From Saccharomonospora glauca K62 (GTDB lineage Bacteria; Actinomycetota; Actinomycetes; Mycobacteriales; Pseudonocardiaceae), in the NCBI RefSeq assembly GCF_000243395.2, contig NZ_CM001484.1:1227568-1291567 (forward strand): a stretch of DNA of 64,000 nucleotides, in the 5' to 3' direction. The position numbers and the translations under genes are program-made. Below are positions 55,330 through 55,417 of the stretch, piece after piece; position 1 is the first letter of the stretch; every line of letters starts with the position of its first letter. The notes below the pieces were generated by a model. That model was not told the origin of the DNA, made no database searches, and saw only the letters and a list, made by a program, of their open reading frames with translations.

Positions 55330-55417
55330 TAGAATGCGAGCGTGATCATTCGTCGCATGTGGTGGTGGCTGCCCTAAGGCGGCCATTGCTGTGCGTACGG
55401 GCCGTCTGCGACGGCCC
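55330..55417 (+). promoter_or_regulatory. Tryptophan attenuator: promoter, leader peptide and terminator
   Basis: A -10-like TAGAAT (55330-55335) lies seven bases before a GTG at 55342 that opens an 11-codon peptide [11 protein letters not shown] ending at TAA 55375-55377; three successive Trp codons occupy 55360-55368. After it, GGGCCGTC (55399-55406) and GACGGCCC (55410-55417) form a perfect eight-base-pair hairpin; GGCGGCC at 55378 can instead pair with GGCCGTC, giving an antiterminator. Known: actinomycete second trpS genes are under ribosome-mediated attenuation. The peptide may be translated from a leaderless start. Confidence 0.75.

Follow-up and report, generated by a model that had tools for sequence, protein, structure and literature searches.

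Does a tryptophan-dependent control region that seems to outlast its own gene still control anything? The question is raised by positions 55330-55417 of the window, the stretch of 64,000 nucleotides from the soil actinobacterium Saccharomonospora glauca K62 analysed here. The first-pass annotation had placed an attenuator at these positions, upstream of a second and broken trpS, and had left two options: the control remains from before the decay, or the leader now controls nothing. In the present analysis, the region is very probably a classical ribosome-mediated attenuator of an auxiliary trpS, now a relic in front of a recently dead gene. This reading is built on the sequence, the pairing potential, conservation, covariation, the lesions and a low dN/dS; from these we infer the start site, the stalling, the termination, the signal and the lack of any other user of the leader.

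Leader frame and alternative pairings

The leader is an open reading frame of 11 sense codons at 55342-55377 on the forward strand (GTG ATC ATT CGT CGC ATG TGG TGG TGG CTG CCC TAA), with a GTG start, a TAA stop and three consecutive Trp codons at 55360-55368, as first described. It is predicted to be leaderless. A -10 box of the TAnnnT type, TAGAAT, occupies 55330-55335 on the same strand and ends 6 nt 5' of the start codon, the spacing expected for a transcript starting at 55342 and inside the 4-9 nt range set for leaderless genes. For S. lividans, the available part of PMC8079986 gives TAnnnT boxes with a mean distance of 6.3 nt to the start site. In a script scan of both strands of the 64 kb, this leader is the sole short ORF that combines TGGTGG with a fitting -10 box, and the whole genome has a single exact copy of TGGTGGTGGCTGCC. 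A simple scan of 55200-55700 returns neither a consensus -35 element nor a promoter, and no Rfam model reaches its gathering score in 55200-55600.

The leader and the sequence behind it hold four forward-strand segments with alternative partners. Strand 1 (55361-55373), which carries the Trp codons, pairs with strand 2 (55378-55390) over 13 bp at -20.9 kcal/mol. The first seven nucleotides of strand 2, GGCGGCC (55378-55384), also pair over 7 bp with 55400-55406 of strand 3 (GGGCCGTC, 55399-55406), forming the antiterminator, and strand 3 pairs along its whole length, 8 bp, with strand 4 (GACGGCCC, 55410-55417) in the presumed terminator hairpin. The pairing potential is that of a ribosome-mediated attenuator, 1:2 and 3:4 being mutually exclusive with 2:3. 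If strand 1 is withheld and the fold stops short of strand 4, 2:3 is the minimum structure at -16.1 kcal/mol; once strand 4 is present, 3:4 is favoured even with strand 1 withheld, so that antitermination would hinge on the order of events, as in classical attenuators. The fold of 55342-55480 beats 200 of 200 shuffles (z -3.99), and the stand-alone fold of 55376-55425 reaches a z of only -1.55.

The hairpin and the possible antiterminator of the first-pass annotation are therefore both present as pairings, but the U-tract of the terminator is missing: the 9 nt after 3:4 contain a single T, 55330-55417 holds no intrinsic terminator with a U-tract, and a simple scan of 55200-55700 finds no intrinsic terminator. 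Its description of the control as intact fits the predicted leader, -10 box and pairings, but not the 3:4 hairpin without a U-tract or the region without a consensus -35. A U-tract is not taken as defining for actinobacterial trpS attenuators, because the trpL2 attenuator of S. lividans also lacks one.

TrpRS1 of S. coelicolor is resistant to indolmycin, and its auxiliary gene trpRS1 was reportedly found by Vecchione and Sello, in J Bacteriol in 2010, to be governed by ribosome-mediated attenuation. To judge from the title of that paper, the mechanism in front of an auxiliary trpS is the same as here; the S. coelicolor gene is functional, whereas the trpS2 at 55478-56536 is broken. Attenuators before Streptomyces trpS genes had been predicted in 2005 by Seliverstov et al., and the part of that work available (PMC1262725) includes a Trp leader with a predicted classical attenuator before a gene likewise named trpS2 in S. 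avermitilis. The trp-operon attenuators in the same excerpt share complementary triples gGCC-rGCy-GGCC, and their terminators all have poly-U tracts, unlike 3:4 at 55399-55417. A further comparison is offered by the trpL2-trpS region of S. lividans TK24, for which the accessible text of PMC8079986 describes, from transcript-end data, a leaderless Trp leader peptide and two hairpins with no U-rich stretch. The S. lividans leader, MMTRTCTQLWRAA, has one Trp, in contrast to the three in a row at 55360-55368, and its trpS is not reported as broken in that text, unlike the trpS2 studied here. The trpL of S. meliloti (rnTrpL, peTrpL) is again a leaderless Trp leader of an attenuator, but according to the excerpt of PMC7298713 it precedes trpE(G) in an alphaproteobacterium and has trans functions, whereas the present leader precedes trpS2. 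The frame at 55342-55377 has the feature expected of this kind of attenuator in actinobacteria, a short leader with Trp codons in a row that lies 5' of a Trp gene. The literature already describes Trp attenuators in front of actinobacterial trpS genes; what is new here is a decayed member.

Conservation and covariation in related loci

The comparison covers 137 loci, counted after the exclusion of 3 duplicates: 57 TrpS2 copies of the family (including the present locus), 2 more distant family TrpRS and 78 loci from named genomes. A qualifying leader is an ORF with WW or WxW whose TAnnnT box ends 3-9 nt 5' of the start codon. Such a leader is present in 110 of the 137 loci, with -10 gaps of 6 nt (85), 7 nt (24) and 8 nt (1), values whose tightness is partly selected, since the script tried several starts per leader and kept the spacing nearest 6. 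A fitting -10 box stands before 27 of the 2049 remaining start codons of these regions. The predicted arrangement of Trp leader and -10 box is not a matter of chance. The other 27 loci consist of 20 without a candidate ORF, one of which (G370) does carry a leader farther upstream, and 7 with an ORF but no fitting box. In a tree of 67 rows, the pseudogene clusters with L143, L148 and L149 (SH-aLRT 95 in a quick tree with no bootstrap). Their leaders, MNSRHLWSWLP in L143 and MTIRREWWWLS in L148 and L149, are of the same type, and leader type and enzyme type thus travel together.

For the alignment, 107 of the 110 leaders are used; the omitted three are an identical duplicate, a leader that precedes a more distant TrpRS, and an unusually long one. 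Standard base pairs fill 98.9% of the cells for 3:4 and 98.0% for 2:3; both partners have changed in 23 cells of 3:4 and in 9 of 2:3, where shuffles give 2.7 and 1.2. When the partner is shifted by 1-3 columns, pairing falls to 20-61% (3:4) and 31-55% (2:3). The number of co-varying pairs is often matched by shuffles (69 of 500 for 3:4, 366 of 500 for 2:3), which indicates few independent covariation events. The clearest event lies in the L153-L162 lineage, where strands 2, 3 and 4 read CAGCC, GGGCTGC and GCAGCCC instead of CGGCC, GGGCCGT and ACGGCCC elsewhere, so that all three strands have changed together and both alternative pairings are preserved at once. The alignment of trpS2 leaders, proposed as a check at first pass, thus finds the Trp leader, the -10 spacing and both exclusive pairings conserved before intact relatives. 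The conserved leader and pairings support the attenuator reading, and a -10 spacing kept in four-fifths of the loci would fit a leaderless start at 55342.

The absent U-tract also raises the alternative that the hairpins are not an intrinsic terminator but work through Rho or through trpS2 translation, by masking its ribosome-binding site. The lineage of the present leader favours it, with 0, 0 and 3 T after the hairpin in the nearest relatives, as does the S. lividans trpL2, likewise without a U-rich stretch in the part of PMC8079986 at hand. Moreover, in 85 of the 108 loci that have a leader and an identifiable trpS2 start, pairing of the ribosome-binding region exceeds the mean for shuffled upstream sequence; related rows in this count are not independent. 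In trpS2 itself, however, the site is exposed to about the same degree as in shuffles (unpaired 0.448 versus 0.456), and at least 4 T follow the hairpin in 80 of the 107 relatives. Action on translation or on Rho is hence regarded as unlikely at this locus. The count of 85 in 108 hints, on its own, at a second, translational layer in the relatives, not at the trpS2 of 55478.

The covariance model R1, run over 390 family genomes, yields 68 rows in 61 genomes: 44 before TrpS2 places, 1 before a more distant TrpRS (G043), 1 on the opposite strand of a counted place, 20 further loci that were examined, and 2 weak matches (G082, G195) outside those 20. The 20 loci divide into 11 before another TrpRS type, 4 before an anthranilate-synthase-like gene, which falls below curated NCBIfam cut-offs in each case, and 5 without a leader ORF by script, which look spurious. 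Fifteen of the 20 (L220-L232, L234 and L239) appear as leaderless Trp leaders with a -10 box 6-7 nt 5' of the start. The idea that the leader has moved onto another gene was rejected, as the followed R1 matches with a leader ORF precede Trp-related genes or their remains. In the genome of the present locus, R1 has one match only, and no second Trp attenuator with a fitting -10 lies upstream of trpE or the main trpS. The main trpS itself looks leaderless, with TAGGAT ending 6 nt before its ATG (about 1463-1474 of L002).

Decay of the auxiliary synthetase gene

The trpS2 pseudogene spans 55478-56536 on the forward strand, matches PF00579 and contains one internal TAG. From its ATG at 55478, the frame meets the in-frame nonsense codon at 55649-55651, a sense codon in the sister species G002, then a net +1 frameshift in a G run at 55979-55983, and then a net -1 frameshift at 56052-56053 that restores the frame, which stays open until the stop ending at 56536. 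Between the two frameshifts, about 25 wrong-frame residues span the conserved GxDQxPH stretch. As had been noted, a nonsense codon and indels disrupt the enzyme gene, which lacks the uninterrupted frame of a functional tryptophanyl-tRNA synthetase. By local alignment its product matches the auxiliary TrpS2 P0001 at 63.9-67% and the main TrpS of the genome at 33%, which assigns it to the auxiliary and not the main type. A single further TrpRS gene of this genome has an open frame; it lies at C1:3785083 and is by similarity the presumed main TrpRS. A TyrRS-like match lies at C1:2971144.

The same gene has a history elsewhere in the genus. A TrpS2-type match is found in 3 of the 12 genus genomes searched, namely the present one, G002 and G011. 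The G011 copy is intact, belongs to a different lineage and has the leader VHRSSCLNWWRSS. The G002 copy is syntenic: it follows the same MFS gene, which is 89% identical. Its frame is broken many times and contains a stop, at sites that differ from those in the trpS2 of 55478-56536. Its homology to the present locus resumes only at 55389, just 5' of strand 3; the promoter, the Trp codons and the strand 2 core have no counterpart there. With separate lesions, and a leader present in one and lost in the other, the same gene has died twice in one genus, with its control kept once and lost once. Across the family, 5 of the 57 TrpS2 copies are broken, and the Trp-leader ORF is kept in four and lost in one, that of G002. 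Besides the present copy, the leader-bearing ones are G119 (frameshift and deletion), which has lost the 3:4 hairpin; G106 (large internal deletion), whose leader ORF has no fitting -10 by the script rule; and G370, whose frame breaks are possibly sequencing errors, because the draft genome is 83% complete. G156, first flagged as short, proved to be full length.

A sequencing or assembly error, with the living strain carrying a working trpS2 under the control of the attenuator, would leave similar traces: one lesion sits in a run of five G, the frameshifts compensate each other, and the rest of the protein is well preserved. Yet the damage comprises three distinct lesions in some 400 nt, including a base substitution, and the -1 frameshift is no mere homopolymer change. 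The gene has also decayed independently at the same place in G002, and the genome (4.56 Mb) is assembled in 2 contigs and 99.97% complete. Such an error is decidedly improbable.

The decay looks young by sequence comparison. With the lesions skipped, trpS2 has a dN/dS of 0.36 against its G002 orthologue (318 codons), and the intact neighbouring MFS gene has 0.27 against G002 (437 codons). Outside the lesions, the protein departs at 4 of 105 highly conserved columns, defined as conserved in at least 97% of intact relatives. In 129 intact controls the median is 0 deviating columns, and 8 controls have at least 4; among the sequences compared the value is high, yet common to the nearest intact relatives L148 and L149 (4 each). 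Recent decay follows from the dN/dS and the few deviating columns together, and the idea of an old relic under long neutral drift is rejected on the dN/dS of 0.36. With a recent decay, we infer that a leader target of less than 90 nt would be expected to be intact without selection. Of the two options left at first pass, survival of the control from before the decay fits best.

Proposed mode of action and present role

In the proposed attenuator, transcription would start at the leader GTG. When tRNA-Trp is charged, the ribosome would clear the three Trp codons, 1:2 and 3:4 would pair, and transcription would stop. When it is uncharged, because Trp is scarce or because a compound such as indolmycin inhibits the main synthetase, the ribosome would stall, leaving strand 2 free to pair with strand 3, and the synthetase gene would be read. 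That gene was lost recently, through the nonsense codon and the two frameshifts, and the switch most likely still forms in front of it.

Downstream of trpS2 lie a putative ORF of 106 codons (56551-56871, forward strand), a tRNA-Arg (56918-56992) and an I36-type inhibitor gene on the opposite strand (57436-58239); the next recognised co-oriented gene is a long ORF from 58191. No recognised gene downstream would profit from antitermination. Most likely, the leader now governs a dead gene, and the suggestion that it controls nothing holds as a present consequence of the decay. On the upstream side, 50830-56536 comprises two MFS transporter genes, TetR-type and ArsR-type regulators and the trpS2 pseudogene, beside the tRNA-Arg. 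The MFS gene at 53634 has a close relative, at 89%, in just one of the 11 other genus genomes, G002, and the region may therefore be a lineage-specific island.

That the leader is instead selected in its own right, as a leaderless Trp-leader RNA or peptide outliving its synthetase and sensing Trp-tRNA charging in trans, like rnTrpL/peTrpL of Sinorhizobium meliloti, is hardly credible: leaders stay intact beside broken genes here and in other family genomes, and the S. meliloti leader has known trans functions in the available text of PMC7298713, but G002 has lost the leader region entirely, the followed matches with a leader ORF all precede a Trp-related gene or its remains and none is free-standing, and the recency of the decay alone accounts for retention.

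In conclusion, the trpS2 locus, read as an attenuator relic, neatly captures a gene that is decaying before its control does. In the wider comparison, a leaderless Trp leader appears to be the usual arrangement before these auxiliary synthetase genes, and the loci of the relatives, with and without U-tracts, form a ready set for testing leaderless-leader attenuation in GC-rich bacteria.
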